The notes beneath the pieces are model-generated. The model had not been told where the DNA came from. It searched no databases and worked only from the letters and a program-made list of their open reading frames with translations. The translations under genes were made by a program, and so were the position numbers. From positions 62,001 through 126,000 of the forward strand of contig NZ_BJCL01000001.1 in assembly GCF_005403045.1 (NCBI RefSeq): DNA of 64,000 nt. Direction: 5' to 3'. How positions within the stretch are numbered: position 1 is the first letter of the stretch; each line of letters begins with the position of its first letter. Below are positions 1,265 through 29,478 of this stretch, in pieces. The DNA comes from Pseudaquabacterium pictum. Its GTDB lineage: Bacteria > Pseudomonadota > Gammaproteobacteria > Burkholderiales > Burkholderiaceae_C.

Positions 1265-1280
1265 GACCCTGGCAGGCGGC

Positions 1281-2348: not shown

Positions 2349-2349
2349 G

Positions 2350-3159: not shown

Positions 3160-3208
3160 GGCGGGCTCGGGTGGTGGGAAGAGGATGGCCGGCAGGGTAG
3201 GCGGGGCG

Positions 3209-3238
3209 ACAGTCGGCATCTGTCACCAGATGGACTGT
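3209..3238. promoter_or_regulatory. operator-like dyad between divergent hydratase and thiolase genes
   Basis: A nested inverted repeat: outer arms ACAGT/ACTGT and inner arms CATCTG/CAGATG around a TCAC centre. It lies 50 bp upstream of the hydratase start and about 60 bp upstream of the thiolase start, where one dimeric repressor could control both directions. No regulator gene is adjacent; a TetR- or GntR-type acyl-CoA regulator encoded elsewhere is a guess. Confidence 0.5.
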
Positions 3239-3298
3239 GATCGCCTGGGGCGCATGCCCACAATCGGCGCCTTCCCTCACCACCGCCGGAGATTGGCC

Positions 3299-4531: not shown

Positions 4532-4555
4532 TCCCCATCCTGCCGGAGACCCGCC

Positions 4556-5734: not shown

Positions 5735-5744
5735 GGACGACCCC

Positions 5745-6863: not shown

Positions 6864-6875
6864 CCGGAGCCCGCC

Positions 6876-7682
6876 ATGGGAGACAGACTGCAAGGCAAGG
6901 TGGCCATCATCACCGGGGCTGGCTCGGGCATCGGCCGCGCCTCGGCGCTGCTGTTCGCGGCCGAAGGCGCGAAGCTGGTGCTGGGCGACAAGACGGATGC
7001 GGTGCGCGATGTGGCGAAAGCCATCGTGGCCAGCGGCGGCCAGGCCACCGCGTTCCAGATGGACGCTGGCGTGGAAGCCGATGTGGCCCACCTGGTGGCG
7101 GCCGCGCAGGCGGCCTACGGCCGGCTGGATGTGGCCTTCGCCAACGCCGGCATCGCCGGTGGCATGGCCAGCATCTTCGAGGCCACGCCCGAGCTGTGGA
7201 CCGAGGTGCTGCGCGTCAACCTGATCGGCCCCTGGCTGATGGTCAAGCATGCCGGCAAGGCCATGGCCGATGCGGGCCACGGCGGTTCCATCATCTGCAC
7301 CGCCAGCGTGGCCGGCATCCGCTCCGGCGCCGGCGGGCCGGCGTACTCGGCCAGCAAGGCCGGCGTGATCAACCTGGCGATGGTGTCGGCCCAGCAGCTG
7401 TGCGAGACCGGTGTGCGCGTCAACGCCCTCTGCCCGGGGCTGACCGAGACCGGCATGACCGCGCCCACCTTCAACTACGCCAAGGACAAGGGCGTGACCC
7501 ACAAGCTGGGCCGCCTGAACCCGCTGCGCCGCGCCGCCCAGCCCGAGGAACTGGCCAACGTGGCCCTGTTCCTGGCCAGCGACCAGAGCAGCTATGTCAA
7601 CGGCCAGGCCATCGCGGTGGACGGCGGGCTCAGCAGCTCGCACCCGGTCACCCGGCAGCTGCCCGGCCAGACAGCGGTCTGA
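6876..7682 (+). CDS. SDR family NAD(P)-dependent oxidoreductase
   Basis: A 268-residue classical short-chain dehydrogenase. It shows the dinucleotide motif TGAGSGIG near residue 14, NAG, a catalytic Ser in CTASVAG, and Tyr157/Lys161 in YSASK. An acidic residue after the second strand (LGDKTD) suggests NAD rather than NADP. In this operon it most likely oxidises a 3-hydroxyacyl-CoA or a related alcohol. The start at 6876 follows a CGGAG ribosome site 12 bases after the dehydrogenase. Confidence 0.87.
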
Positions 7683-7712
7683 CACCGACACCACAACAAC
7701 CAGGAGACAGCC

Positions 7713-8489
7713 ATGTACCAACCCTTCGACCTGAGCGGCCGCGGCGTCGTCGTCACCGGCGGCAATGGCGGCATCGGCCTGGGCATGGCCCGGGCGCTGC
7801 TGGCCTCCGGCGCCAAGGTGTCGATCTGGGGCAACCGGGCCGAGAAGACCGAGGCCGCCCGCGCCCAGCTGGCCGCCGAGTGTGGTGATGCCAGCCGGGT
7901 GCATGCGCTGGTGTGCGACGTGGGCGACGAGGCCCAGGTCGACATCGCGTTTGCGCAGTCGGTGGCGGCGATCGGCAACGTGCATGCCTGCTTCGCCAAT
8001 GCCGGCGTGTCCGGCAAGGGCAACATGGTGATGGACATGACGCTCGACGAGTTCCGCCGGGTGCAGCGCATCAACGTGGAGGGGGTGTTCCTGACCTTCC
8101 GCGCGGCTGCGCGCCACATGGCTGCGCACGGCCAGGGCGGATCGCTGGTGGCGACCGCCAGCACCGCGGCGGTGGAGGGCGCCGCCCGCAACAGCCACTA
8201 TGGCGCCAGCAAGGGCGCGGTGACGGCCTTCGTGCGCGCGCTGGCGGTGGAACTGGCGCGCCACAAGATCCGGGTCAACAGCATCCTGCCGGGCTGGATC
8301 GTGACCGAGATGACCGAGAAGTCGGTGGGCAACGACAAGTTCGCCGGCGCGGTGATGCCGCGCATTCCGGCCCGCCGCTGGGGCGAGATCGATGACTTCG
8401 GCGGCATCGCCGTCTACCTCGCCAGCAACGCGGCCGCCTACACCACCGGCGAGCAGTTCATCATCGACGGCGGCTACACCAAGTTCTGA
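7713..8489 (+). CDS. SDR family NAD(P)-dependent oxidoreductase
   Basis: A 258-residue classical short-chain dehydrogenase with TGGNGGIG, NAG, Ser in ATASTAAVEG, and Tyr163/Lys167 in YGASK. It lies 30 bases after the previous SDR behind a CAGGAGACAG ribosome site and closes the thiolase operon. The two SDRs are not close copies of each other, so they probably serve successive steps or different stereochemistry. The substrate is not deducible. Confidence 0.86.
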   Translation: MYQPFDLSGRGVVVTGGNGGIGLGMARALLASGAKVSIWGNRAEKTEAARAQLAAECGDASRVHALVCDVGDEAQVDIAFAQSVAAIGNVHACFANAGVSGKGNMVMDMTLDEFRRVQRINVEGVFLTFRAAARHMAAHGQGGSLVATASTAAVEGAARNSHYGASKGAVTAFVRALAVELARHKIRVNSILPGWIVTEMTEKSVGNDKFAGAVMPRIPARRWGEIDDFGGIAVYLASNAAAYTTGEQFIIDGGYTKF

Positions 8490-8541
8490 GCGGCCGGCCG
8501 GCAGGCCGCCGCCCCCGGCGGGTGCAGAATCGTGACCGAGT

Positions 8542-8559
8542 CCACCGGCCTGCCGGTGG
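8542..8559. terminator. hairpin after the thiolase/SDR operon
   Basis: A perfect 7-bp stem CCACCGG/CCGGTGG with a 4-base loop lies 53 bases after the SDR stop codon. No T run follows, so it may slow transcription or protect an RNA end rather than be a full intrinsic terminator. Confidence 0.35.
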
Positions 8560-8615
8560 CCCGACGGCATGCGGCCCGCCGCTCCAGGGCCTGCGGATCG
8601 ATCAAGGAGAAAGCA

Positions 8616-9044
8616 ATGACGGGATGGAAGACCGCGGCGGCACTGTCGCTCTGCCTGGGCATGGCGCTGTCGGCCCACGCCGCCAACGAGCCGGCCAAGA
8701 AGGCCGACGCGCCCAAGGCTGAAAGCACCTGGGACAACGTCAAGGACTTCTCCCACAAGGAGAAGGAGAAGGCCGTGGCCGCCGGCAAGAAGCTGATTGC
8801 CGAGACCGACAAGAAGATCGCCGCGCTGGCCAAGGACACCAAGAACGCCACCGCCGAGACCAAGGCGGCCCATGAGGCGAACATGAAGGAACTGCAGGAG
8901 AAGAAGAAGGCCGCCCAGGCTGAACTCGACAAGCTGGGCAAGGCCAGCGGCGAGGCCTGGGATGCCACCAAGACCGGCTTCTCCGACGCCGGCAAGGCGC
9001 TGGCCGCCGCGTACGACAAGGCCGCTGCCGCCATCAAGAAGTAA
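8616..9044 (+). CDS. small secreted Lys/Ala-rich helical protein
   Basis: A 142-residue protein with a Sec signal peptide (short basic start, hydrophobic stretch, Ala-x-Ala before residue 24) and a mature part that is almost entirely charged helix. Lys and Ala dominate, with repeated K-K-A-A spacing typical of coiled coils. The AAGGAGAAAG ribosome site decides the start. It is a monocistronic unit: a hairpin precedes it and another follows it. A periplasmic structural or histone-like role is possible, but I recognise no family. Confidence 0.75.
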   Translation: MTGWKTAAALSLCLGMALSAHAANEPAKKADAPKAESTWDNVKDFSHKEKEKAVAAGKKLIAETDKKIAALAKDTKNATAETKAAHEANMKELQEKKKAAQAELDKLGKASGEAWDATKTGFSDAGKALAAAYDKAAAAIKK

Positions 9045-9079
9045 GCAGCCTGCCCGGTCGCCCGGGTGACTGTCCCGTG

Positions 9080-9107
9080 AAGCCCCGGCCTGCAGAGTCC
9101 GGGGCTT
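9080..9107 (+). terminator. hairpin terminator after the secreted protein gene
   Basis: A perfect 9-bp stem AAGCCCCGG/CCGGGGCTT with a 10-base loop, 35 bases after the stop codon at 9044. The T run is weak, as is usual at this GC content. It also argues that the next gene starts at 9128 and not at 9077. Confidence 0.6.
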
Positions 9108-9127
9108 CCGCACTTCTGAAGCACACC

Positions 9128-9529
9128 ATGGGCATCCAACTCGGCAAGCCGTCGATCGACCTGGGCATCGTCACCACCAACGGCGAGGCCATGCTGGCCT
9201 TCTACCGTGATGTGATCGGCCTGAAGGTGCAGGGCCAGATGCCCATGCCCGGCGGCGGCACCATGCACCGCCTGCTCAGCGGCGACAGCCTGATCAAGCT
9301 GGTGGTGGTGCCCAGCACGCCCGCCGCGGCGGCGCCCGGTGGCATCCAGGGCGGTGCCGGCTACCGCTACTGGACGATCACCGTGACCAACCTGACCGAG
9401 ATGGTGGCGACCTGCTCCGAGGCCGGCGCGGCCGTGGTGTGGATCGAGCGCGAGATCCGGCCCGGCGTGCGCATCGCCATGGTGGCCGATCCGGACGGCA
9501 ACTGGGTGGAGTTCCTGCAGATCGGTTGA
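9128..9529 (+). CDS. VOC (glyoxalase/dioxygenase fold) protein
   Basis: A 133-residue vicinal-oxygen-chelate protein. It begins with a beta strand (DLGIVTTNG), then AMLAFYRDVIGLKV, and ends with VADPDGNWVEFLQ, the usual last strand with a metal-ligand Glu. The ATG at 9128 starts after the terminator hairpin. Single VOC domains dimerise to form metal sites for isomerase, lyase or dioxygenase reactions. Next to acyl-CoA genes an epimerase-like role on a CoA ester is possible, but nothing specific is visible. Confidence 0.8.
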   Translation: MGIQLGKPSIDLGIVTTNGEAMLAFYRDVIGLKVQGQMPMPGGGTMHRLLSGDSLIKLVVVPSTPAAAAPGGIQGGAGYRYWTITVTNLTEMVATCSEAGAAVVWIEREIRPGVRIAMVADPDGNWVEFLQIG

Positions 9530-9542
9530 CCTGTGGCAGGCA

Positions 9543-9562
9543 GACCGGTGCGGTGGCCGGTC
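9543..9562. terminator. hairpin between convergent genes
   Basis: A perfect 6-bp inverted repeat GACCGG/CCGGTC with an 8-base loop lies in the 55-bp gap between the VOC gene and the LuxR gene, which face each other. It could end both transcripts. Confidence 0.35.
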
Positions 9563-9584
9563 CCCCAAGCGGCAGCTCGGGAAC

Positions 9585-10286
9585 TCAGGCCAGCGCCTGG
9601 GTGGTGTGACGGGCGATCGGCGGCAGGCCGCCGACGGTGCGCAGCAGATCGCTGACGCTGCGCGCACCCGTCTTGGCGCGCACCGCGCTGATCTGTGACC
9701 GCACGGTGCACACCGCCACGCCGCCGGCCAGGGCGATCTGCGCGGGCTTCAGGCCGGCGCAGAGGGCATCCAGCACCGCGGCCTCGGCCGGGGTGAGGCC
9801 ACTGTTCTGGCTGAAGAACTGCAGGGCCAGCCGGCTCGGGCGGCCGTCGCTGCCCAGCAGCAGCGCAGCGGTGGCGCCGCCGCCGATGCCGCTGTTGCTG
9901 CCGAGGGGCACCACGGCCACGGCCTGCGTCCGGCTGCCGCGGCGCAGCGACAACATCGACCATTGGCCCCGCTGTGCCGCCAGCAGGGCGGTGTCGACCC
10001 GCTGCTGGGTCTGCGGGTTGCCATGGAGCTGGCCCTGGCACAGGGCCAGCGGTGCACCTTCCTGGCAGGCCAGCCGCGCAGCCGGGTTGGCGTACAGCAG
10101 CCGCGCCGCCACGTCGACCAGCAGCACGCCGATGTCCACGACATCGAGCAACTGCAGCGGCAACCCGAGCGCCGCAGGATGGACCTGCTGCGTTGGCGGC
10201 TGCAACTGCGGTGCCGGCGCGGCCGCGCGCAGGGCCTGCCAGTTGACCGGTTGTGCAAAGGTGGCGGTGTCGGTCTCGGTGTACAT
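9585..10286 (-). CDS. LuxR-type transcriptional regulator
   Basis: A 233-residue regulator. The N-terminal two thirds look like a PAS-type sensor (LLDVVDIGVLLVDVAARLLYANPAA). The C-terminal LTPAEAAVLDALCAGLKPAQIA followed by VRSQISAVRAKTGA is a LuxR/GerE helix-turn-helix. The start at 10286 is set by a GGAGGACAGC ribosome site. It diverges from the large cyclase/ATPase gene across 205 bp. The signal it senses is unknown. Confidence 0.82.
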   Translation of the reverse strand: MYTETDTATFAQPVNWQALRAAAPAPQLQPPTQQVHPAALGLPLQLLDVVDIGVLLVDVAARLLYANPAARLACQEGAPLALCQGQLHGNPQTQQRVDTALLAAQRGQWSMLSLRRGSRTQAVAVVPLGSNSGIGGGATAALLLGSDGRPSRLALQFFSQNSGLTPAEAAVLDALCAGLKPAQIALAGGVAVCTVRSQISAVRAKTGARSVSDLLRTVGGLPPIARHTTQALA

Positions 10287-10491: not shown

Positions 10492-13400
10492 ATGGTGGAC
10501 ACAAGCTCGGACGGACCCGCGGTCTCGCGCCGGCGCCCAACGCTGCTGTACACGGACCTGGTCGGGTCCACAGCGCTCGGCGCGGCGATGGAGCCCGAGG
10601 ACTACCGGGCGCTGCTGCAGGCCTTGCGGGCCATCTGGCACGAGGTGGCGCAGGCGCTGCAGGCCCGAGTGGTGCTGACGCAGGGCGACGGGGCGCTGAT
10701 CGCGTTCGGCATCCCGCTGGCCGGCGAGCAGGATGGCCGCCACGCGGTGGACGCCGCATTGCGGGTGCATGCACGGGTGGCCGCGCTGCGGCCGGCCGGC
10801 GTGCCGGCGGCGCGGCTGCCGTTGCGCATGCACTCGGCCGTGCATGCGGGTACGCTGCTGCTGGCCGCGGGCGACATCGAGCAGGGGGTGTTCGACCTGT
10901 CCGGCGGTGTGCTCAACACCACGGTGCAGCTGGTGCGCACTGCCCGGCCTGGCGAGGTGCTGGCCACGTCGGCGGCGCTGGGTCCGAACGCGATGTTCTT
11001 CGAGCTGGGCGACCCGCCGCCGGCAGCACTGGCGGTGCTGCAGGGCGGCGTGGCCACCTGGCATGCGGCCGCGCCACCACCGGTGCAGTCGGTGCTGGGG
11101 CGCAGCAGCGCTGCGCGGCGCTTCGATGCCACCGCCCGCCGCGGGCTCACGCCGTTCATCGGCCGCGGCATGCTGCATGGGCGGCTGCTGGCGTTCCTGC
11201 AGCAAGCGGTGCCGACCGATGGCCGCTGCCTGGTGCTGCAGGGCACTGCCGGCCTGGGCAAGACCCGGCTGCTGGAAGAGGTGCTGGCCGAGGCCGAGGC
11301 CGGCGACAACGCGCCGCTGCTGCTGCGCGGCAGCTGCGAGAGCGATCTCGGCGCCGAAGTGCTGCAGCCCTTCCTGCAGATGCTGCGGTCGTGGCTGGCG
11401 GCGCGTGCCGACCTGCCGCTGGCGCCGTCGCTGCCGGCCGACGATGCGGCCGCCTTGCGTGCCGTGGCCGGTGCGCCTGCCGCATCGGCGCTGCCGGGCG
11501 ATCTGGCCGGTGGTGCTGTCGGGCTGCTGCAGCGCGCTTTTGTCGCGCTGGCCAGGCAGCAGCCCTGCGTGCTGGTGATCGACGACTGGCAGTGGGCCGA
11601 CGATGCCAGCCGCCAGCTGCTGCAGGGCCTGCTGGGCCAGGTCGACGGGCCGCGGCTGCTGCTGGCGGCCCGTCCGCGCGAGGGCGGCGCGCCCTGGCTG
11701 GCCGATGTGGCGCATGCCGATCTGCAGCCCTTCACGCCGGCCGAAACCGATGCCGCGGTGCAGCGTCTGCTGCCGCGGCCCGACCCGTTCCTGATCGCCC
11801 GCATCCACGACGACGCCGGCGGCGTGCCGCTGTTCATCGAGGAGCTGTGCCACTCGGTGTCGGCCGACCACCTGCTGACGGCGATCGGCGGGCGCGGCGG
11901 TTCACAGGGCTGGCTGGCCACGCTGGTGGTCGCACGGTTGCAGCGCCTGCCCGACGACCAGGCGGCCGTGGTGCGCGCGGCCGCCGTGGTCGGCAATCTG
12001 GTGCCGCTGCACTGGCTGGCCGTGGCCTGCGGCGGCTTGCCCGCACCCGCGTTGCTGCAGGCCCTGGCGGACGCCGACTTTCTGCGCCCTGAGGCTGGTG
12101 GCCGGGCGCTGCGCTTCAAGCACGGCATCACCCGCGACGCGGTGTACGAGTCGATCGGGCGTGACGCGCGGGTGGCGCTGCATCGGCGCCTGCAGGATGC
12201 GATGCAGCGCGAGGCCGGTGAAGCCGGCAGCGACGGCCTGGAAGCCCTGGCCCGCCACAGCCACGGCGCCGCCGACTGGGCCGCAGCCACCCTGCATGCC
12301 GAGCAGGCCGGCGACCGGGCGATGGGCATGTTCGCGCTCGACAGCGCACGGCGCATGTACCTGGCCGCCATGACCGCCCTGGAGCGGCAGGGCGCGCTGG
12401 AGGGCGACGCCGCCCGGCGCTGGTGCCTGCTGTCGAACAAGCTCGGCATGACCTGCATCTTCGACACGCTGGCGCTGCCCGATGCCTTGCAGCTGTTCCG
12501 CCGCGCCGTGGACCTGGCCGATGCGCTGGGCGACGCGGGCGTGCGTGCGCGGGCCGACTACTGGATGGGCTACCTGTGCTACGGCCACGGCCACCCGCGG
12601 CAGGCCGAGGCCCATTGCCGGCGGGGGCTGCAGCTGGCCGGTCTGGCGGGCGATGCCCGGCTCGCCGCCCAGCTGCGGGCCACGCTCGGCCAGGTGCTGG
12701 CCGCCCTGGGCCGCTACGACGACGCCATGGGCCTGATGTCGGATGCCCTGGTGGCCAAGCGCGGCAGCGTGCGTGCCGGCAGCAACCTGGCCATCGGCTC
12801 GGCATTCACCCTGGCCTGCCAGGCCAGCGTGCTGGGCGACCGTGGCCGGTTCGCGCAGGCCCATGCGGCGTTCGACGAGGCCCACGCGCTGGTGGGCGAT
12901 TCAGCCCATCCGGTGGCCAACTCGGTGCGCAGCTGGGCGGTGATGGTGCTGCTGTGGCAGGGACGCTGGGACGACGCGCAGGCGGTGGCCGATGAAAGCA
13001 TCTGGCTGGCGCAGCGCTCGTCGGCGCTGCTGCAGATGACGATCGCCCGCGCCGCCAAGGGCTGCGCCCTGTGGATGCGGGACCAGGCCGACGACGGCTT
13101 CGCGATGATCGAGGAAGCGGTGCAGTGGATGGCGCAGCGGCAGGTGCACTTCTACACCACGCTGTACCACGGCTGGCTGGTGGAGGCCCTGGTCGACCAG
13201 GGGCAGGCCGCACTGGCCCGGCGCTCTGCCGCCCGGCTGTTTGCCCGGGCGCGGGCCGGCGAGCTGCTCGGCCTGGCAGGCGGGTGCCGGGCGCTGGCGT
13301 TGGCCGATGCTGCGGCCGGCGACGCACGCCGGGCATGGCGGCGCATGGCGCTGGCGGACAGCGTGGCGCTGCGGCGCGGCTCCCAGCGCGAGCAGGCGCT

Positions 13401-13551
13401 CAATCGCCTGTGCAGCGCCCGGCTGCATGCGGCGCTGGGCGATGCGGGCGCGGCGGCCCGCGATGGCGCCGCCGCCTGCACCGACCTGCTGTCGCTGGAG
13501 ATGCACTGGCATGCCGGTGCGGCGCAGCGGTGGCTGCAGGCGATGCGCTGA
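10492..13551 (+). CDS. class III nucleotide cyclase domain fused to AAA/STAND ATPase and TPR repeats
   Basis: A 1019-residue soluble protein. Residues 17-190 form a class III adenylate/guanylate cyclase domain whose metal-binding Asp22 (YTDLVGST) and Asp66 (QGDGALIAF) are both present. Residues about 225-600 are an AAA/STAND-type ATPase with Walker A GTAGLGKT (Lys257) and Walker B VLVIDDWQWAD. The C-terminal 450 residues are Ala/Leu-rich paired helices of the TPR type. It differs from MalT-like regulators by having a cyclase in place of a DNA-binding domain. The start at 10492 has an AGGGGGA ribosome site; earlier in-frame codons fall in the divergent promoter region. The family is common in Burkholderiales and its triggers are unknown. 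Confidence 0.85.
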   Translation: MVDTSSDGPAVSRRRPTLLYTDLVGSTALGAAMEPEDYRALLQALRAIWHEVAQALQARVVLTQGDGALIAFGIPLAGEQDGRHAVDAALRVHARVAALRPAGVPAARLPLRMHSAVHAGTLLLAAGDIEQGVFDLSGGVLNTTVQLVRTARPGEVLATSAALGPNAMFFELGDPPPAALAVLQGGVATWHAAAPPPVQSVLGRSSAARRFDATARRGLTPFIGRGMLHGRLLAFLQQAVPTDGRCLVLQGTAGLGKTRLLEEVLAEAEAGDNAPLLLRGSCESDLGAEVLQPFLQMLRSWLAARADLPLAPSLPADDAAALRAVAGAPAASALPGDLAGGAVGLLQRAFVALARQQPCVLVIDDWQWADDASRQLLQGLLGQVDGPRLLLAARPREGGAPWLADVAHADLQPFTPAETDAAVQRLLPRPDPFLIARIHDDAGGVPLFIEELCHSVSADHLLTAIGGRGGSQGWLATLVVARLQRLPDDQAAVVRAAAVVGNLVPLHWLAVACGGLPAPALLQALADADFLRPEAGGRALRFKHGITRDAVYESIGRDARVALHRRLQDAMQREAGEAGSDGLEALARHSHGAADWAAATLHAEQAGDRAMGMFALDSARRMYLAAMTALERQGALEGDAARRWCLLSNKLGMTCIFDTLALPDALQLFRRAVDLADALGDAGVRARADYWMGYLCYGHGHPRQAEAHCRRGLQLAGLAGDARLAAQLRATLGQVLAALGRYDDAMGLMSDALVAKRGSVRAGSNLAIGSAFTLACQASVLGDRGRFAQAHAAFDEAHALVGDSAHPVANSVRSWAVMVLLWQGRWDDAQAVADESIWLAQRSSALLQMTIARAAKGCALWMRDQADDGFAMIEEAVQWMAQRQVHFYTTLYHGWLVEALVDQGQAALARRSAARLFARARAGELLGLAGGCRALALADAAAGDARRAWRRMALADSVALRRGSQREQALNRLCSARLHAALGDAGAAARDGAAACTDLLSLEMHWHAGAAQRWLQAMR

Positions 13552-13584
13552 GGCCCGCGGCTGCCGGCCCCGGCTGCGGTGCCC

Positions 13585-16500
13585 TCACGACGTGGGTGCG
13601 GGCGTGGGTGCGGGCGGTGGTGGAATGAAGGTCACCAGCTTCGCCGCCAGGGCGGCGAAGCCCGCGACGGTCGGGTGCAGTTCATCGCCCCAGTCCAGGG
13701 TGTGGTCGGGCGATGTCAGCGTGCCGGTCAGGTTCGCCGCATGGACGTTGGACTGGCTGAATTCGCCCACGACGGTGGCGATCTGGCCGTTCAGCTCGGT
13801 GATCAGCGCCTCCATGATCTGCCGGCCCTCGGCCACGCTGTAGCCCCGCGCGCTGATGGGCGGTTGCAGCGGGGCTTTCTTGATCGAGAGGGCGGGCCGG
13901 CCGTCGGGGATCGGATGGTCGTAGCCCGTCACCAGCACCGGGATGGCCCCTTTGGTCGCACCGACCAGCAGCCCCAGTGCAGCGCGCAGATCGCCGGCCA
14001 GGCGGCCCTGGATGAACTGGTCCTTCTGGCCGTTGAAGAACGGCGTGCCGACAGCCTTCGGGTTGAGCATCTCGAACAGCGGGATGCGCCCGTTGCCGTC
14101 TTCGCGGTGCACATCGTTGCCGCCGCCGCTGACGATCACCGCCAAGGGCAGCGGCCTGGGTTGGACCGGATCGCTGGCGGCGAGCAGCGCCTGCCGGATG
14201 TGGCGCCAGATGGGCCCGGGGAAGGGGGCCTTCGGGTTCTCCTTCGCCATGCTGGACAGCAGCGTGCCGAAGGAAAACGGCGTGCCCATGCCGCTGGTGT
14301 CGTAGCCCATGGCCTCCAGCGCATCGTGCAGATTGCGTCCCTGGGCGAGCGGGTTGTTGATCCAGGAATCGCCCCAGCCGAGCAGCCGGCCCTTGGTGCC
14401 GGGCGCGAACAGCGCGGCCACCGGATCGGCGGTGCCGGTGAGCGGCAGCTTCAGGGCCGCGCTGAAGGTCTTCAGCGTTTCCGTCTGCACGGTGGTGGAC
14501 CTGGACGTGCCGCCAGCTGCTGCCGGGTCGCCGGGCGCCGCTGCCGGCATCGGGCCATCGAAGTACAGCACGCCGCTGGCCGCCCCGCTGCGCAGGGTGT
14601 CCTGCCGCGCCGCCACCGCGGCCAGCACGCCGACGATCACGCCCATGGCGGCCAGGTAGCCAGGGCAGGCATGGGTGGGCGATGTCGGCATGTCGCGCCG
14701 CCCGCCGAAGATCGGCATCACATCGCCGCCGCCCCGCGCCAGTGCCTGCTGGGTGGCGGAGACGAGCGCCAGCACCACGGTGTCGCCGGCCTCGACGCTG
14801 CAGGCCGGTTCACTGCCGTCCTGCAGCACATGGGCGCGCCGCGCCGTGCGCCAGATCAGCTCGGGCACCGGCCGTGCCTGCATGGTCTCGCGCAGGCGTG
14901 CATGCATGCGCTGGCGGGCATCGGCCGGCACGTTCCAGCCCGCCGCGGCGGGATGGCTGGCGCGCAGCGCGGCCAGCGTGCCGTCCTGCAGCCATTCGGC
15001 CAGGATGCGGCGCAGGCTGCCGCTGGTCGTCGGCAGAAAGCCCATCAGCGCGCCGGCGATGGTGCGGCCGGCCAGGTCCAGGTCGGGCTGGCCGCCCGGC
15101 CCGGCCCGGGTGATCACGTCGTCCAGCACCGCGCGGGTCACCGGCGCGGTGGTGGCCATGTTGGCCGCAAGAAAGGCCTGCATCGCCCGACGCACCGCCT
15201 GGCCGTGGTTGCGGGACAGGCGGCGCGCCAGGTCGCCCGGCGCCGGCTGGAACGTGGCCCGCGATGCGGCGGTGAAATGGCCGGGGTAGCGGGGTGTCAT
15301 GCCGCAGTCCGCGCCGTCCGCCGGCCAGCTGCTGCCGCCGCGGACGAAGTGCCCACCCAGTTCGGACAGGCCGAACCAGTTCTCGCACAGCGCGGCCAGC
15401 ACCGCGTCGATCAGTTCGCGGGCATCCAGCGCCAGGTCCCAGCGGCTGCTGCGGTCATCGGCCGCGCGGTCCTGCGCATCCTGGACGAAGGCGGCCAGTG
15501 CGTCGCGGGCCGCTTCGAATGCGGGGGTGAACCCGTGGTCGAAGTCCAGCGCCATGATCGCCCGGTTGCAGGCCGCCGATTGCTGCTGGTAGGCCGAGCC
15601 GTCATCCAGGCCGAGGTAGATCTCGCCGATGCTGTCGCGCAGCCGCTGCTGGTAGCCGTCCACGGTGACATGGCCATGGGCATTGCGCAGCACCTCGTTG
15701 ACCAGCGTTTCGCTGGCCACCAGCACGCCGTACGGCGTGCGCAGGGCGCCGCCGTGGAACTGGCGGATCGCCGCCCAGACCGACGCGCTGCGCCAGTCGG
15801 CCACGGCCTCGGGGTCTTCCAGCGCGGCCTTCCAGGCCAGCGCGGCGCGCTCGGCACCGGCGTCCTGCTCCAGCTGCAGCAGCTGCCGGATCGTGCGCGC
15901 GCCGTCGGCGGCGTCCCAGGGCACCGGGGGGGCCGTCGGGCTGGCCTGGCGCGCCTGCTGCGCCAGCCATTGCAGGCCGCTGCGCGCCGGCGCGAAGAGG
16001 TACAGGCCCCATTGCAGCCGGGTGATGCTGCGCACCGGCGCATCGACTGCGGCGCTGCCGTCCAGCGGCATGCGCACCACCTTGCCCTGGTGCTCGAAGC
16101 GGAACATCCGCGCATGGCCCTGGCGCGGCACCGCGGTGAACGGATCGGCATGGGCCGACGCGATGCCGGTGCTGTTGCCGCCACTGAGCCAGCGCTGCAC
16201 CACCTCGAACTGTTCGGCGATGCTGGCGTTGTAGGCCATGAACACCAGGCCGCGGTCCTGCCCGTCGTCCAGCGGGCCGCCACTGCCAGGGCTCGGCCAA
16301 TCCGGCGCCTTCGGGCCGAAGGGCAGGCCGGTGCGCACCATGCGCGGAGGCCGGCCGCCGGGAGTCTCGGTGAGGCTGCCCGCATCGTCCGCCTCGGTGG
16401 ACACCGACCTGCGCGGGTTGGCCAGCCGGATGTGCGCGGCAAACGGGCAGCCCTGGCCCAGTGCGTCATCGGCATAGTCGAAGTCATTCGGCGTGGCCGG

Positions 16501-18342
16501 GTCCGCCGCCACCATCGGGTGCCCAGGGTACGCGCTGCCTTGGGGCCAGCGTCCCATCATCTTGCCCAGGACAAGCTGGCGGTCCAGCTTGTTGGCCTCG
16601 GCCGCGCTGTCGACGGCCTGGCGGTAGGTGGCCGTGTCCAGGCCCAGCTTGCGCACCACCAGGTAGCTGCCGTCACGCAGCCATGCCCGGGCCGGATCGC
16701 GGTTCTCGGGCAGGTCGGCGGCATGGTCGGCAGCGTTGTCGTGGCCCACCAGCACCTCGCCCGGCGCAACCTGGTTCGGGAAGATGGTGCCGGCCGATGC
16801 CCGGTCATAGACGGGCTGCGACTGCCCGTCGGCGAAGCCGAAGTGGTCGAGCCGCCGGCCCTGATCATCCACCCGCGACATCCACTGCACCGACAGCAGG
16901 CGCACGCCGTCCAGCCCTGCCAGCAGGTGGCGGGCGGCGTCGGCCAGCGCCCTGGTGGGCGTGGTCGTGTCGGCCACCGCGGTGTCGGACGGATCCTGCG
17001 CCGCGATCCAGCGCCATTGCAGCAGCACATGCACCAGTTCGGTCGGCACGACCGGGGTGGTGGGCGTGGCCTTCCAGGCCGGATCGAGCCCGGCTTCCCC
17101 GTTCAGCGGCGGCAGCGTCCAGCGGCGCGGGTGGTTGTGGCGCAGATCGCCCAGCAAGCCGCAGCGGTTGGCCATGCCCTGGCGGAACTCATGCGGCAGC
17201 CCCGCCAGGCTGCGCTCGTCGAGACCGCAGGCCCGCAGGCCTTCGGCGGTGAAGGCGATGTTCAGCACCACGCTGTGGAGCGCGGGGACCTGGTCGCCGC
17301 TGCCCAGCAGGGGCAGGGCCTTCTCGATCAGGGCGGCGCCGCCGGCGGGCAGGTCCAGTGCCACCAGGCAGAGCAGGCCGTGGCTGACGTTCGGAAACGG
17401 CGCCAGCACGCCGCCCTGCACATTGGCCAGCGGCAGCACCGGGGCGTCGGCCAGTGGCGGCGGCACCCGCAGGGCCGGGCGCGGGTTGGTCTGGCGGAAC
17501 CAGGCCAGCTGATCGCGGAAGCGGGTGGCGGCCTTGTCGGTGGCCTCGGCAAAGGCGTCGATGTGCTGCAGCCGCGCAAACTCCGGCAGCAGCTCATGCG
17601 CGGCATCGAGCAGCACCTGTCCGTCGGCCGTACCGGGTGGGTACAGGTCGGCCAGGCGGTACAGGCCCGCCAGGCTCTGCAGGCCCTGGCGGATTGCCGC
17701 GCGGGGGCCGGACAGCGTGTCCTCCGGCGGACCTTCACCTCCGGGCTCGGTCGTCGTCAGCACCAGATCCCAGGCGATCTGCTCGGCCTCCGGAACGGCC
17801 AGCCGGGCCAGCGCCAGGTCGTCCGGGCTGCGCCGCTGCAGGCGCTCATGCACGGCCAAGTACTGGCCGTCCTGGTAGGTCTGGCCGGGCAGGGCGTAGA
17901 AGAACGGCGTGTCCACGCGGACGGACTCGAGCCAGTCGCGCCAGACCGAATGGCTGCTGCGCCAGCCCAGGGGATAGTTCTGCGTGTTGCAGAAGATCAG
18001 GTCCAGCAGCCGCGACGCCTTCTGCCAGATCACCCGCACGTACGCCTCGAACGGGCCGTCGAAGTTGACCGACAGCATCACCTCGCCCTGCGGCTCGAGC
18101 ACCGCCACCCGCACCGAATGGATGGCGCCGACCCGCTCGACCGCGTCGGACATCGCCCGGAACAGCTGGTACTCGTGCGAACCGCGGCGCCCCGCATGCA
18201 GCAGGCGCAGCAGGGCCTGCGTGCGGCTGCGGTAGGTCACCGATTCCAGCGACGGCACCATGCCCTGGCGCAGCGGCGCGCGGACCACCAGTTCCGTCCC
18301 GCCGGCCAGGCTGGGGTTCTCGGTCTTGAGTTGCTTGCGCAC
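13585..18342 (-). CDS. multidomain DyP-type peroxidase / cytochrome P450-like / SGNH hydrolase fusion
   Basis: One uninterrupted 1585-residue frame with no signal peptide. Residues 1-290: unassigned alpha/beta region. Residues about 295-805: DyP-type heme peroxidase, with VQGGVL near 308, distal Asp505 in GFADG, proximal heme ligand His637 in CPFAAHIR and distal Arg670 in VRTGLPFG. Residues about 810-1250: P450-like domain with heme-thiolate Cys1226 in THACPGYLAAMG. Its K-helix reads RTAR (1165-1168) instead of ExxR, and the oxygen-activating acid is Pro1104. Residues about 1315-1575: SGNH/GDSL hydrolase with Ser1326 in WGDSW, Asn1409 in GGGND, and Asp1553/His1556 in DELHP. The GTG start follows a GGAGG site at 7 bases. 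A LuxR gene lies 46 bases upstream in the same direction. Substrate unknown; a two-heme oxidation plus ester or acyl hydrolysis is inferred. Confidence 0.85.
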   Translation of the reverse strand: MRKQLKTENPSLAGGTELVVRAPLRQGMVPSLESVTYRSRTQALLRLLHAGRRGSHEYQLFRAMSDAVERVGAIHSVRVAVLEPQGEVMLSVNFDGPFEAYVRVIWQKASRLLDLIFCNTQNYPLGWRSSHSVWRDWLESVRVDTPFFYALPGQTYQDGQYLAVHERLQRRSPDDLALARLAVPEAEQIAWDLVLTTTEPGGEGPPEDTLSGPRAAIRQGLQSLAGLYRLADLYPPGTADGQVLLDAAHELLPEFARLQHIDAFAEATDKAATRFRDQLAWFRQTNPRPALRVPPPLADAPVLPLANVQGGVLAPFPNVSHGLLCLVALDLPAGGAALIEKALPLLGSGDQVPALHSVVLNIAFTAEGLRACGLDERSLAGLPHEFRQGMANRCGLLGDLRHNHPRRWTLPPLNGEAGLDPAWKATPTTPVVPTELVHVLLQWRWIAAQDPSDTAVADTTTPTRALADAARHLLAGLDGVRLLSVQWMSRVDDQGRRLDHFGFADGQSQPVYDRASAGTIFPNQVAPGEVLVGHDNAADHAADLPENRDPARAWLRDGSYLVVRKLGLDTATYRQAVDSAAEANKLDRQLVLGKMMGRWPQGSAYPGHPMVAADPATPNDFDYADDALGQGCPFAAHIRLANPRRSVSTEADDAGSLTETPGGRPPRMVRTGLPFGPKAPDWPSPGSGGPLDDGQDRGLVFMAYNASIAEQFEVVQRWLSGGNSTGIASAHADPFTAVPRQGHARMFRFEHQGKVVRMPLDGSAAVDAPVRSITRLQWGLYLFAPARSGLQWLAQQARQASPTAPPVPWDAADGARTIRQLLQLEQDAGAERAALAWKAALEDPEAVADWRSASVWAAIRQFHGGALRTPYGVLVASETLVNEVLRNAHGHVTVDGYQQRLRDSIGEIYLGLDDGSAYQQQSAACNRAIMALDFDHGFTPAFEAARDALAAFVQDAQDRAADDRSSRWDLALDARELIDAVLAALCENWFGLSELGGHFVRGGSSWPADGADCGMTPRYPGHFTAASRATFQPAPGDLARRLSRNHGQAVRRAMQAFLAANMATTAPVTRAVLDDVITRAGPGGQPDLDLAGRTIAGALMGFLPTTSGSLRRILAEWLQDGTLAALRASHPAAAGWNVPADARQRMHARLRETMQARPVPELIWRTARRAHVLQDGSEPACSVEAGDTVVLALVSATQQALARGGGDVMPIFGGRRDMPTSPTHACPGYLAAMGVIVGVLAAVAARQDTLRSGAASGVLYFDGPMPAAAPGDPAAAGGTSRSTTVQTETLKTFSAALKLPLTGTADPVAALFAPGTKGRLLGWGDSWINNPLAQGRNLHDALEAMGYDTSGMGTPFSFGTLLSSMAKENPKAPFPGPIWRHIRQALLAASDPVQPRPLPLAVIVSGGGNDVHREDGNGRIPLFEMLNPKAVGTPFFNGQKDQFIQGRLAGDLRAALGLLVGATKGAIPVLVTGYDHPIPDGRPALSIKKAPLQPPISARGYSVAEGRQIMEALITELNGQIATVVGEFSQSNVHAANLTGTLTSPDHTLDWGDELHPTVAGFAALAAKLVTFIPPPPAPTPAPTS

Positions 18343-18349
18343 GGTCTGT

Positions 18350-18354
18350 CCTCC
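18350..18354 (-). promoter_or_regulatory. ribosome binding site deciding the GTG start of the fusion protein
   Basis: GGAGG lies 7 bases before the GTG at 18342. It supports this start for the 1585-residue protein even though the codon is not ATG. Confidence 0.7.
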
Positions 18355-18388
18355 CTGGAAGCGGGGTTGTGTCCACCCCTGGGCGCGC

Positions 18389-19459
18389 TCAGTGCGCCAT
18401 TTGTCCTGCGGCCGCCGCCAGCACCTTGCCGATGGCGCTGCGCTCGTGTACTTCCAGGCGTTCGAACACGCGCTTGGCGTGGTAGCTGGCGGTGTTCACG
18501 GTGATGCCCAGTTCGCCGGCGATTTCCTGGTTGCTCAGGCCCCGGGCCAGCAGCAGGGCCACCTCGCGCTGCTGCGGCGACAGGCCCAGCGCCGCGGCGC
18601 CCTGGGCCAGCCGCAACGGCTGTGCCGCCAGGCGGGACAACAGCAGCGCCACTGCGGTGCTGCTGCCGTCGCCCGATGTCAGCGCATGGCGGCGAAACGC
18701 GAACTGGCCCCAGGCCGTGCGCACCATGTGCACCGCGTTGGGCGCGCTGACCACCGCCGCCAGCACCGCCGCCACAAAGCGCGGAAGGGTTTCGTGCTCG
18801 GTGCGGGCCAGGGCGGGGTTGATGGCATTGCCGTGGGCCAGCCGCACCAGGCGCGGCCAGTGGGCGTCGGCGTACAGCACGCGGCCGGTGCCTTCCTCCA
18901 GCAGGGCCAGGCCTTCCTCCACCACCTGGTCCTGCAGCCCGCGCAACGCGGGCGGTGACGGCTCGGCCACGGCCATGCCCAGGTAGTGCAGCACACCGGC
19001 CAGCGCCTGTTCGTCGTGCTCGTCGAACGGCGTGCTGCCAGCGCCGCGGTACAGGCTCAGCTGCCCGAGCGCCCGGCCTTCATGGCGCACGATGGCATAC
19101 AGGAAATGCTCGACATCCAGCGCCGCCAGCACGTCGCGGTAGTAGGCGGTCTCGCGTTCCTCCGGCGTGACCGAGCGGCGGCTCAGCGGGTTGGCGGCCG
19201 CGCAGCGGGCCAGGTACTGGCGGCGGAACTGCGCGCTGTCATGCTGGGCGTGGTAGCCGGCCATGCGCTCGGGCTCGAGCATACGCTCGGCATACATGTT
19301 CGTGATGTTGCCGCGGTCGTCGCAGAAGAAGAAGCCGGCGTGGGATGCCGGCACGACCTGGCGCAGCACAGGCAGCAGCGACGGCAGCAGCACCGGCCCG
19401 GGCATTTCCAGGCGGCACAGCTGCCGCAGCGTGACGCGGGCGGATCCGGCGGCGCTCAT
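18389..19459 (-). CDS. LuxR-type transcriptional regulator
   Basis: A 356-residue regulator. Residues 1-270 resemble a GAF/autoinducer-type sensory region with no recognised ligand motif. The C-terminal 60 residues (LSPQQREVALLLARGLSNQE, then TASYHAKRVFERLEV) are a LuxR/GerE helix-turn-helix. The ATG at 19459 overlaps by four bases (ATGA) the stop of a 17-codon reading frame with a strong ribosome site. The gene lies 46 bases before the peroxidase/P450/SGNH gene in the same direction, so it is its most likely regulator and probably shares its transcript. Confidence 0.82.
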   Translation of the reverse strand: MSAAGSARVTLRQLCRLEMPGPVLLPSLLPVLRQVVPASHAGFFFCDDRGNITNMYAERMLEPERMAGYHAQHDSAQFRRQYLARCAAANPLSRRSVTPEERETAYYRDVLAALDVEHFLYAIVRHEGRALGQLSLYRGAGSTPFDEHDEQALAGVLHYLGMAVAEPSPPALRGLQDQVVEEGLALLEEGTGRVLYADAHWPRLVRLAHGNAINPALARTEHETLPRFVAAVLAAVVSAPNAVHMVRTAWGQFAFRRHALTSGDGSSTAVALLLSRLAAQPLRLAQGAAALGLSPQQREVALLLARGLSNQEIAGELGITVNTASYHAKRVFERLEVHERSAIGKVLAAAAGQMAH

Positions 19460-19509
19460 GCGGGCACCGGCAGCATGCTGGTTGGCATGGGCTGGACGAT
19501 CTGGAACAT
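19456..19509 (-). CDS. possible 17-residue leader peptide coupled to the LuxR gene
   Basis: The frame MFQIVQPMPTSMLPVPA starts at 19509 behind AGGAG at a spacing of 7 bases, a better ribosome site than the LuxR gene itself has. Its stop overlaps the LuxR start (ATGA). It could be a translational leader or a small signalling or substrate peptide. A peptide of this size can also be chance, so the call rests on the ribosome site and the overlap. Confidence 0.4.
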   Translation of the reverse strand: MFQIVQPMPTSMLPVPA

Positions 19510-19623
19510 CGGGAGGCTCCTGGACTGCTGGTGCCGACGTGCGGCCTGCGCCAAGTGTCGACTGGCCGGCCACCCTCGAGCAAGGGGCGCCGGCAGAGCG
19601 TAGTCGCTGCGCTGCAGTGGCAT

Positions 19624-19643
19624 TCCCACCTGTGCATGTGGGA
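19624..19643. promoter_or_regulatory. inverted repeat upstream of the leader peptide/LuxR operon
   Basis: TCCCAC and GTGGGA form a 6-bp inverted repeat around an 8-base centre, about 115 bp upstream of the leader peptide and just after the MFS stop codon. It could be a regulator site for the LuxR operon or a weak terminator for the MFS operon. The rest of the 156-bp gap shows nothing clear. Confidence 0.3.
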
Positions 19644-19665
19644 TCACCAGCAAGGCGGTCGGTCT

Positions 19666-21093
19666 TCAAGGCACCTCTGGCGGCGCCCCGGGTGCCACCC
19701 GGTGCCCCGACATCTCCGCCCCCGCATCCGCCGCCAGTTGCCGGTACCACCAGATCGAGGCCAGCGACAGCAGGCCCACCGCGGCAAACGCACGGTTGAA
19801 ATCCACCGCCACCAGCGCCTGCCGGCCATCGACCAGGCGCGAGGCGTCCAGCAGCATCGCGGCCACCGCCACGCCGGCGGCCAGGCTCAGTTGCTGGGCC
19901 ACGGCCACCAGGGCGGTGGCACGGCTCATGCGCGCCTGCGCCACATCGGCATACCCCAGGGTGTTGAGGCTGGTGAACTGCAGCGAGCGGAAGAACCCGC
20001 CGACCAGCAGCACCGCCATGATCACCGGCCCCGGCGTGGCGGCGGTGAACAGCGCCAGCGCAGCCATCATCGCGCTGCTGATCCAGGCGTTGGCCAGCAG
20101 CACCCGCCGGAAGCCCCAGCGCCGCAGGATGGGCGCGGCGGTCAGCTTCATCGTCACCGCGCCCACCGCGGCGCTGAAGGTCAGCAGGCCGGATTCGAAG
20201 GCGCTCATGCCGAAACCCAGCTGCAGCATCAGCGGCAGCAGAAAGGGCAGGGCGCCCACCGCCAGGCGGAACAGGTTGCCGCCCATGATCGAGATGCGCA
20301 GGCTGGCGCTGTGCAGCAGGGTCAGGTCGAGGATGGGGTGCGGCGTGCGGCGCGCGTGTTGCACATAGGCCCACAGCAGCGCGGCGCCGGCGGCCATCAT
20401 CGTCAGCGCCGGGCCAGGGTGGGCGGACCGGCTGCCCAGCAGCGTGAAGCCGAAGATCGCCAGCGACAGGCCGCTGCCGGTGAGCGCGAAGCCGCGCCAA
20501 TCCAGTGGCGGCGCGTCGGCCGCGCGCACCTGTGGCACGAACCACAGCGCCAGCGCCAGGCCCAGCAGGCCCACCGGCACGTTCAGCCAGAAGATGCCGC
20601 GCCAGTGGTGGTAGGTGGTGATGAAGCCACCCACCGGCGGCCCCAGGATGGGTGCGAACAGCGTGGGAATGCCCAGCCAGGCCATGGCCGACACCATCTC
20701 GGCCTTGGGGATGGCGCGCAGCAGGATCAGCCGGCCCACCGGCAGCATCATCGCCCCGCCCAGGCCCTGGCAGAACCGGCCCACCACCAGGCTGGACAAG
20801 TTCCAGGCCAGCGCGCAGCCGATGGACGACAGCGTGAACACGCCAATGGCGGCGGCGAACACCGTCTTGGCGCCGAAGCGGTCGGCGCACCAGCCGCTGA
20901 TCGGAATGAAGATCGCCAGCGCCACGAAGTAGGCGGTGAAGGCCAGCTTCAGCGTCAGCGGATCCACCTGCAGGTCGGCCGCGATGGGCGCCAGCGAGGT
21001 CGCGATCACCGTGCTGGTCAGGCTCTCCATGAACAGCGCCGCCGCCACCACCAGGGTGAGCGTCCTGGTGGTGGGGGCGCCAGCGGCTGTCAT
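19666..21093 (-). CDS. MFS exporter, DHA2 (EmrB/QacA) type
   Basis: A 475-residue membrane protein with about 14 predicted transmembrane helices. It has the motif A-like DRFGAK after helix 2 and the antiporter segment GPPVGGFITTYHHWRGIFWLNVP, typical of proton-driven drug exporters of the DHA2 family. It ends the FadH/hydrolase operon, one base after the hydrolase stop. It probably exports an organic compound or intermediate of that pathway; the substrate is unknown. Confidence 0.85.
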   Translation of the reverse strand: MTAAGAPTTRTLTLVVAAALFMESLTSTVIATSLAPIAADLQVDPLTLKLAFTAYFVALAIFIPISGWCADRFGAKTVFAAAIGVFTLSSIGCALAWNLSSLVVGRFCQGLGGAMMLPVGRLILLRAIPKAEMVSAMAWLGIPTLFAPILGPPVGGFITTYHHWRGIFWLNVPVGLLGLALALWFVPQVRAADAPPLDWRGFALTGSGLSLAIFGFTLLGSRSAHPGPALTMMAAGAALLWAYVQHARRTPHPILDLTLLHSASLRISIMGGNLFRLAVGALPFLLPLMLQLGFGMSAFESGLLTFSAAVGAVTMKLTAAPILRRWGFRRVLLANAWISSAMMAALALFTAATPGPVIMAVLLVGGFFRSLQFTSLNTLGYADVAQARMSRATALVAVAQQLSLAAGVAVAAMLLDASRLVDGRQALVAVDFNRAFAAVGLLSLASIWWYRQLAADAGAEMSGHRVAPGAPPEVP

Positions 21094-21094
21094 G

Positions 21095-21984
21095 TCAGGG
21101 CGATGGGAAGGCGGCCAGTTCGGCCTCGATCAGCGTGGCCATGCCGGCCGGGTCTTCCATCGGCAGGAAGTGGGTGCGGTCGGGGCGGAACAGGTCGCGT
21201 CCCTGCGGGAATTCTGCCGCCAGCCCGGGCCAGGTGGGCGAGCCCAGCGGATCCCAGGGTTGGATGGCCGGGTCCATCGTGCGGGCACGCACCACCAGCA
21301 CCGGGATGTCCAGCGCCCGCACCAGGTCGTAGGTGCCGGGGAAGTTGCGCGCCAGCGGGTAGACCTGGCCCTCGTGCTGCGGTGCGCAGCACAGCTGGAA
21401 GCCGCTGCCGCTGTCGGCAGGGCGCAGGCCGTGCTGGCAGTAGTCCATCAATGCAGCGCGGTCGAACACCGCATAGGGCGGCCGGTCGGCGAAGCGGTCG
21501 AACATCGCCTGCGGCGAATCGAACTGGTTCTTGCGCTGGGCGGCGGGATGCAGCTGGCCCAGCGGCACCGGCGGTTGCTGGTAGGCCTCCGGGGCGGACA
21601 TCACCGGATCGACCAGGATCAGCCGGCGGAAGGCACCCGGCCGCTGCGAGGCCGCCTGCACCAGCGCATGCGCGCCCATGCTGTGGCCCACGCCCAGCGC
21701 ACCCTGCAGGCCCAGTGCGTCGATCTGGGCAACCTGGTCGTGGCCGAAATGGCGCCAGTTGTCGAACGGCACCGCATCGCTGCGGCCATGGCAGCGCTGC
21801 TCGATGGCGATGACATGGCGCTGCTCAGGCAGGCGGCGCACCGCCTGGTCCCACACCCGGCCGTGGAAGCCGGTGGCATGCACCAGCCACAACGTCGGGC
21901 CGTGGCCACGGCGGTCGGCCTGCCATTCAAAGTGGGCCAGGCGGATGCCGGGGGCGTCGGTGAAGTGCAGGGTGGGCTGGTCCA

Positions 21985-21985
<1 letters not shown>
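21095..21985 (-). CDS. alpha/beta hydrolase
   Basis: A 296-residue alpha/beta hydrolase. The oxyanion region is VHATGFHGRVW, the nucleophile Ser lies in GVGHSMGAHA, and a catalytic His is in PDRTHFLPMED near the C-terminus. It has no signal peptide. Its ATG overlaps the stop of the dienoyl-CoA reductase gene by one base, which suggests coupled translation. Substrate may be an ester or CoA ester. Confidence 0.83.
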
Positions 21986-24725
<2,740 letters not shown>

Positions 24726-24844
24726 CCGACGCGGGGCGCCGCCGCGGCATTGACGGCCGCAGGCCGTGGTGCTGAACTGCGGCTGCGGTCCGGGGATGTC
24801 GTCGCCATGGTGCGGATGCACGGCCGGGCCGCCGGGAGGCGGCC

Positions 24845-28269: not shown

Positions 28270-28273
28270 CACA

Positions 28274-29467: not shown

Positions 29468-29478
29468 GGTGTGGTGCC

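Follow-up and report, generated by a model that had tools for sequence, protein, structure and literature searches.

What does a bacterial reading frame encode when it appears to join a peroxidase, a cytochrome P450, and a hydrolase in a single chain, and is such a join real? The question is raised by a stretch of 64,000 nucleotides from Pseudaquabacterium pictum (RefSeq assembly GCF_005403045.1, contig NZ_BJCL01000001.1, positions 62,001 to 126,000 of the forward strand), hereafter the window. Positions 13585-18342 of its minus strand form one frame with a GTG start, 1585 codons, and no internal stop. We describe the 1585-residue product (13588..18342), which carries an N-terminal domain that we name NFDG, a DyP peroxidase, a divergent P450, and an SGNH hydrolase, and its convergent neighbor, which encodes a class III cyclase-AAA_16 ATPase-TPR protein. 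Our preferred reading, tentative at a probability of about 0.4, is that the 2 genes form a cassette: a peroxide-driven two-heme oxidation module that would be fed by lipids and controlled by the cyclase/ATPase protein.

Four domains in one frame

Very GC-rich DNA leaves long antisense frames open, and the plus strand opposite the gene is also open for 1641 residues; an open frame arising by chance, or by an assembly join, is therefore the first alternative to consider. All homology found belongs to the minus-strand frame. The complete four-part protein is present in 4 other genomes, at 58% identity (L003), 43% (L018), and 37% over the best segment (L002), and in G832, where it is spread over 2 contigs (L043, L042); G and L numbers are our handles for genomes and sequence stretches. 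Since the same four-part protein recurs in this manner and its active-site residues are conserved, we rejected a join or chance frame as exceedingly improbable. A sequence-only reading of the locus, made without database searches, had proposed a single uninterrupted frame that combines 3 enzymes. The frame and all 3 enzyme assignments hold, by fold, profile, and family matches; the conserved N-terminal domain was overlooked. That reading had also named 2 outcomes that would count against it: other folds at residues 810-1250 or 1315-1575, and homologs that exist only as separate genes with a sequencing join here. Neither occurred, as these regions match P450 and GDSL folds or families and fused homologs exist.

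The NFDG domain (residues 1-295; 17458..18342, minus strand) is supported by an 11-sequence alignment (A8) and by hhalign. It has no Pfam match at E<=10, and its name is our own, taken from the domain's motif. It corresponds to the last part of a separate 504-residue Skermanella protein (hhalign probability 96.3, E 1.9e-9, 96 columns) and to the middle of a fusion protein from genome G703 (96.1, E 3.7e-9, 100 columns).

The DyP domain follows at approximately residues 300-800 (15943..17445, minus strand). The closest solved relative of residues 303-795 is the DyP of Deinococcus radiodurans (PDB 8re3, E 1.3e-28). NCBIfam TIGR01413 matches at E 4.1e-21 with 75.6 bits, under its cut-off of 100.5, and the isolated region clears the Pfam Dyp_perox_C cut-off (21.7 vs 20). 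A structure model of residues 60-1259 gives a Foldseek DyP match at E 4.1e-16; its mean predicted confidence (pLDDT) is 64.8, too low in NFDG and part of DyP for judging how 2 hemes would pack. Asp505, His637, and Arg670, which we take to be the GxxDG aspartate, the proximal histidine, and the distal arginine, are invariant in all 9 rows of alignment A1; the sequence-only reading had named the same 3 residues. Sequence, fold, and key residues all place the domain in the DyP-type family.

A P450 without its usual motifs

The third part (approximately residues 810-1275; 14518..15915, minus strand) is a P450, an assignment we regard as secure. It rests on fold search and on intermediate P450s, because detection from the primary sequence failed or was weak. 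In an AlphaFold model of residues 786-1585, the P450 part has block-mean pLDDT values of 74-97, with 2 dips to 66 and 51. All 50 Foldseek matches listed for this model are P450s (best E 4.4e-9); with the model of residues 60-1259, P450s fill rows 28-50 among the matches listed. An alignment running from end to end links the family profile to a separate Skermanella P450 (hhalign probability 96.6, E 6.1e-10, 346 columns), which itself matches Pfam p450 at E 1e-12. The profile also aligns with the P450 part of the G703 protein (98.1, E 6.6e-14, 322 columns), for which the Pfam p450 match has E 1.9e-6.

The heme-thiolate cysteine proposed earlier, Cys1226 (codon 14665-14667), and the histidine 2 residues before it are invariant in the 13 aligned members, and the loop around them is unusual. 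The Phe-to-Cys distance is 13-22 residues in all 13, with an insert of 6-15 residues between FGG and HxC; the distance is 7 in the usual bacterial loop, FGxGxHxCxG, as given in the excerpted text of PMC13049297. Two further signatures are missing. None of the 13 has the K-helix ExxR at the position aligned to the ExxR of the Skermanella and G703 P450s, and none has the I-helix acid: the groove reads Pro-Thr in 12 and Pro-Pro in 1. The acid-alcohol pair of O2-activating monooxygenases is thus lacking. The Pro-Thr groove (GFVPT, GFIPT) is shared by proteins with the order P450-NFDG-DyP, of which the G703 protein is one, but in these the Cys loop is normal and ExxR is present. The groove therefore seems to be the older feature, and the loop insert and the loss of ExxR seem to have arisen later.

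The hydrolase

A low-confidence linker (residues 1270-1316; 14395..14535, minus strand; pLDDT < 50 at model residues 485-531) leads to the last part, approximately residues 1310-1580 (13603..14415, minus strand), which by sequence is a predicted SGNH/GDSL hydrolase. Pfam Lipase_GDSL_2 is found at E<=0.1 in all 6 members; the window protein scores 23.1 bits, under the cut-off of 32.9. Six PDB profile matches at E<=1 are all GDSL, acylhydrolase, or carboxylesterase chains, led by 8ik1, a "GDSL family lipase" (E 0.0068). Ser1326, Asn1409, and His1556 are invariant in the 6 SGNH members; Asp1553, which the sequence-only reading had added to this set, is Asn in 2 of them.

Modular parts and patchy distribution

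We found this P450 family at 14 loci, a nonrandom sample drawn from several searches of unequal reach: the window, G006, G018, G032, G210, G245, G540, G809, G817, G821, G832 (L043 and L042, its 2 contigs, counted once), G861, the metagenome-assembled genome SZAS AMP-55 (L002), and plasmid pDB-1 of Sphingopyxis sp. DBS4 (L019). G861 has the P450 domain only. The G703 stretch (L032) is left out because its domain order differs. On pDB-1, which is a mobilizable plasmid, the fusion gene (L019:5992-8421) starts inside DyP, with a Tn3 transposase gene as its neighbor, and seems to have lost its 5' end.

The trio of NFDG, DyP, and P450 occurs in 3 arrangements. Besides the four-part type of fusion, 2 Skermanella plasmids (L020, L021) carry the trio as 3 adjacent genes, and P450-NFDG-DyP fusions are found in G703 (L032:6944-11425, 1494 residues), on plasmid pNL2 of Novosphingobium aromaticivorans (SARO_RS19865), and in Sulfitobacter pontiacus (K3755_RS15475). 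Nine plasmid records match at least 80% of the G703 protein; 2 of the 9 were examined. Near the G703 protein lie a Fer2-FAD-NAD reductase gene and a gene of the b561/ethylbenzene-dehydrogenase type.

The hydrolase is variable as well. A lipid hydrolase is present at 9 of the 14 loci: fused SGNH in 5 (window, G006, G540, G832 over its 2 contigs, and L002), a separate SGNH gene directly behind and overlapping the end of the three-part protein in G210 (L016/L035), and a patatin gene directly upstream in G817, G821, and G245 (Pfam Patatin E 3e-11 to 5e-10). The patatin-like phospholipase genes lie at L037:11603-13789, L038:11415-13766, and L040:7394-9286, and the fusion genes adjacent to them have no SGNH part. 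As a hydrolase for G018, an SGNH-like match elsewhere in that genome (L015) was rejected, with a profile probability of 0.2 against the SGNH family. Judged by these sequences, the NFDG, DyP, P450, and hydrolase parts are modular. The hydrolase had been suggested to release or prepare a product; a role in substrate supply fits better than a release step, since patatin or a separate SGNH replaces the fused SGNH at other loci.

The distribution is patchy. The fusion or P450 domain was found in 4 of 60 relatives at E<1e-100, in 3 of 21 genus genomes, and in 3 of 399 order genomes (own genome included in each), in 2 of 398 genomes of the phylum, and in 6 of 80 relatives of G540, one of them P450-only. 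The P450 profile found 1 of 369 in the class (own genome) and 3 of 398 in the phylum, one being an other-order protein; these draws overlap, and the counts are not to be added. A plasmid search for the P450 domain returned a single record, Sphingopyxis, and no relative was found in 50,697 phage records.

A cyclase-ATPase neighbor

The 3' end of the fusion gene lies 33 bases from the convergent gene at 10492..13551 (plus strand), and its 5' end lies 46 bases from a LuxR gene discussed below. The convergent gene encodes 1019 residues with Pfam matches to AAA_16 (2.8e-21), TPR_2 (2.3e-8), and Guanylate_cyc (3.1e-6). A cyclase-AAA-TPR gene directly adjoins 13 of the 14 loci, convergent in 11 and downstream on the same strand in 2 (L037, L038), and even G861, which has no more than the P450 domain, has it as a neighbor. 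The exception, L018, has a major facilitator superfamily (MFS) gene on the 3' side and only 391 bases of 5' flank. Because the window's own genome holds a single such gene at E<=1e-20, chance adjacency is unlikely. Cyclase and P450-domain distances are correlated over 11 loci (Mantel r 0.79, reached by 1 of 20000 permutations); the test was repeated without L038 because the close pair L037/L038 drives it, and the correlation was then 0.60 (22 of 20000). This is expected under joint inheritance.

By eye, the window cyclase domain keeps what we take to be both metal-binding aspartates, and has Gln for the presumed transition-state Arg and Leu at the presumed site of the usual Lys. The cyclase domains of several other loci, also by eye, keep at least the residues that we read as the Asn and Arg. 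The window domain, in which 2 presumed catalytic residues look lost, may therefore be degenerate.

A proposed mechanism and its difficulties

In the preferred reading, the first step would fall to the hydrolase, which is SGNH in the window protein and patatin or a separate SGNH at other loci, and which would release a substrate of acyl or ester type. The DyP domain would bind heme and react with H2O2 or an organic peroxide. The heme-thiolate P450 would then use or rearrange the peroxide, without O2 activation by electrons from NAD(P)H. The NFDG domain would be an obligate companion. Control would lie with the cyclase-AAA-TPR protein, which would detect a signal and time the action of the enzyme. 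The fungal fusions of a heme dioxygenase and a P450 are a reasonable analogy because the P450 here has features seen in P450s that work without O2 activation: all 13 members have no I-helix acid and have the loop insert.

Several points count against this reading. Pfam p450 (PF00067) matches neither the window protein nor, at its curated cut-off, any of the 13 members, and the best match in a PDB profile search reaches only E 0.14, with P450s making up 24 of the 30 matches listed. With ExxR lost, the P450 could bind heme poorly or not at all. Nothing in the analysis shows that the DyP domain forms a hydroperoxide, and we know of no DyP that does so. No hydrolase was seen at 5 of the 14 loci (G018, G032, G809, G861, and Sphingopyxis), in flanks that were partly scanned. 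The fatty-acid link is drawn from the hydrolase families, and neither a lipoxygenase nor a substrate was identified. Finally, electrons might still be supplied, since reductase-type genes lie near the G703 protein (Fer2-FAD-NAD) and near the window protein (a flavoprotein of the old yellow enzyme, OYE, type).

Divergence, mobility, and a possible role in defense

Compared with its congener G006 (88% complete, 320 contigs; stretches L033, L045, and L047), the window contains an island of divergence at 10526..18388 that spans both cassette genes. Nucleotide identity is 83-92% over the covered kilobases of window 1-10000 and 19001-30000 and 69.5-74.4% over those of 11001-18000, in a single comparison in which 2 island kilobases are under half covered and 25001-26000 is not covered at all. 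Synonymous divergence (dS) is 0.78 for the first 3 domains, 0.74 for SGNH, and 0.84 for the C-terminal part of the cyclase protein, vs 0.28-0.59 for the flanking LuxR, MFS, hydrolase, and OYE genes. The ratio of nonsynonymous to synonymous divergence (dN/dS) is 0.45, 0.72, and 0.39, respectively, vs 0.15-0.22 for the same 4 flanking genes. The raised dS suggests that a diverged allele has come in as a replacement, and the raised dN/dS suggests weaker or diversifying selection; the island looks like allele replacement or fast evolution. L037 and L038 have the cassette and patatin gene in common, and their flanks outside it no longer match; therefore, the cassette moves.

Such behavior invites a different explanation, in which the cassette serves defense or antagonism and a STAND-like cyclase-AAA-TPR sensor triggers a damaging oxidative or lipolytic effector, made up of DyP-P450 and SGNH or patatin, against phage, plasmid, or competitor. 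The patchy spread across genus and order, the island with its raised dN/dS, the cassette and patatin gene shared by L037 and L038 in unlike surroundings, and the Sphingopyxis copy, carried by a mobilizable plasmid with a Tn3 transposase gene adjacent, all suit it. In PADLOC, moreover, the cyclase matches Pycsar cyclases, if weakly (E 1.2e-4 in the window, 1.2e-12 in L036). The fusion protein itself has no match in PADLOC-DB, and hence none to its known Pycsar or CBASS effectors, the phage records hold no relative, and the window cyclase domain looks to have lost 2 catalytic residues (judged by eye, at positions we presume to be the catalytic ones). On balance, we find a defense role rather unlikely.

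A bolder variant would be a new kind of bacterial module for signaling or for something akin to immunity: the STAND-like sensor would control a fast-diverging, lipase-fed, two-heme oxidative effector whose P450 became a CYP74-like hydroperoxide enzyme independently, a bacterial counterpart of the eicosanoid or jasmonate cascade in one protein. We hold this to be improbable.

Regulators and upstream genes

The LuxR-type regulator of 356 residues (18389..19459, minus strand; GerE 3.4e-12) lies 46 bases upstream of the fusion gene and had been taken for a regulator dedicated to it. This is not borne out: by tblastn, among 15 other loci, it occurs only in the congener stretch L033, at 85.6%. In the window, genes for an MFS protein, an alpha/beta hydrolase, and an Oxidored_FMN/Pyr_redox (OYE-type) flavoprotein lie upstream on the same strand; among the 15 loci these too occur only in L033, and they are 87-93% conserved. 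All 4 were dropped as cassette parts. The MFS, hydrolase, and OYE genes look unrelated, being confined to L033 and conserved where the cassette is not.

These upstream genes are the core of a catabolic alternative, in which the cassette works with the MFS protein, the alpha/beta hydrolase, and the OYE-type reductase in oxidative catabolism or detoxification of a lipid, an aromatic compound, a xenobiotic, or lipid peroxides. DyP and P450 families are often catabolic, and AMP-binding and TRAP-transporter genes are found near L036. The restriction of the 3 upstream genes to L033, and their conservation where the cassette diverges, tell against such a partnership, and we regard catabolism as unlikely.

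Other regulators were observed near members of the family. Two genes near the G210 cassette (L035:11981-12514 and 481-1065) resemble a LuxR-like gene at window 9585-10286, and such LuxR-like genes of another kind may reflect some association with regulators. In Novosphingobium, the gene directly before that of the P450-NFDG-DyP fusion (L048) is annotated as a SARP-family regulator, and a BTAD (SARP-type) protein is encoded near the L037 cassette (L037:3424-4191).

Regulators of this type are one reason to consider a biosynthetic role, with a peroxide-derived secondary metabolite or signal as the product, in the manner of other clusters that contain a P450 and a peroxidase. The SARP-family and BTAD proteins speak for it, together with a weak match of the window LuxR to BagY/FevT (45.7 bits, cut-off 700). 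Against this, the parts scanned around the 14 loci show no recurring genes for a synthase, a ligase, or tailoring enzymes, and we consider biosynthesis quite improbable. The lipid-fed oxidation module remains our preferred reading.

Comparison with known systems

The titles and abstracts of the open literature searched, outside of which lie preprints and many subscription papers, contain no account of a DyP-P450 fusion. This agrees with the statement of the sequence-only reading that no characterized protein has this order.

Some of the closest systems are bacterial. The P450-NFDG-DyP proteins of Alphaproteobacteria, annotated and, as far as we found, uncharacterized, resemble the window protein in having the same 3 domains in one chain and the motif GF(V/I)PT. 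They differ in that the P450 comes first, with a Cys loop of normal length and ExxR, there is no SGNH part, and a different regulator lies beside them. The Skermanella triplet has the same 3 parts in the same order as the window protein, but as 3 genes, with no hydrolase, and with no cyclase neighbor in the stretch examined. The Deinococcus radiodurans DyP (PDB 8re2, 8re3), unlike the window protein, is a single-domain peroxidase.

The CYP74 clan (allene oxide synthase, hydroperoxide lyase, and epoxyalcohol synthase) offers a parallel for the P450. In the excerpted text of PMC10813956, CYP74 enzymes have a nine-residue addition in the heme-binding region, where the insert here is 6-15 residues, and a changed groove, and they need neither O2 nor an electron donor. 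The fungal 9-allene oxide synthase P450 domains have a (V/A)PxT groove (PMC13049297, in part). These likenesses are a parallel and do not prove function. CYP74 enzymes stand alone, we found no recognizable sequence kinship to them, and they have an ERR triad (PMC10813956, same excerpt), whereas the P450 of the window has no ExxR.

A functional model may be the fungal dioxygenase-P450 fusions, which include PpoA and the linoleate diol and allene oxide synthases and which, like the window protein, place a heme peroxidase-type domain before a P450 in one chain (PMC4420034 and PMC13049297, as excerpted). According to the same excerpts, the P450 of these fusions uses no external electron donor and has an I-helix groove without the usual acid-alcohol pair; their N-terminal domain belongs to the peroxidase-cyclooxygenase superfamily (PMC4420034). 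The window protein differs: its first enzyme domain matches DyP only, not a cyclooxygenase-type heme dioxygenase; it has the additional NFDG and SGNH parts; it is bacterial; and it is known from sequence alone. The PpoA analogy drawn earlier is therefore kept in one sense and given up in another. With a P450 that has no I-helix acid and carries a Cys-loop insert, the window protein may work like the fungal chains; with a DyP domain, it is not a member of their group. We use the wording "works like" because the idea of a peroxidase-P450 chain is already known from fungi (PMC4420034 and PMC13049297, in the parts cited).

Diheme proteins that link a peroxidase-type domain to a P450 have been described from fungi. 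Bacteria have assembled a comparable machine on more than one occasion and in 2 domain orders, starting from another peroxidase superfamily and in company with a lipid hydrolase and a partner of the cyclase/ATPase type. The family provides a conserved, testable system for two-heme catalysis and for P450s without ExxR and the O2-activating pair, with possible relevance to oxylipin-like signaling in bacteria.

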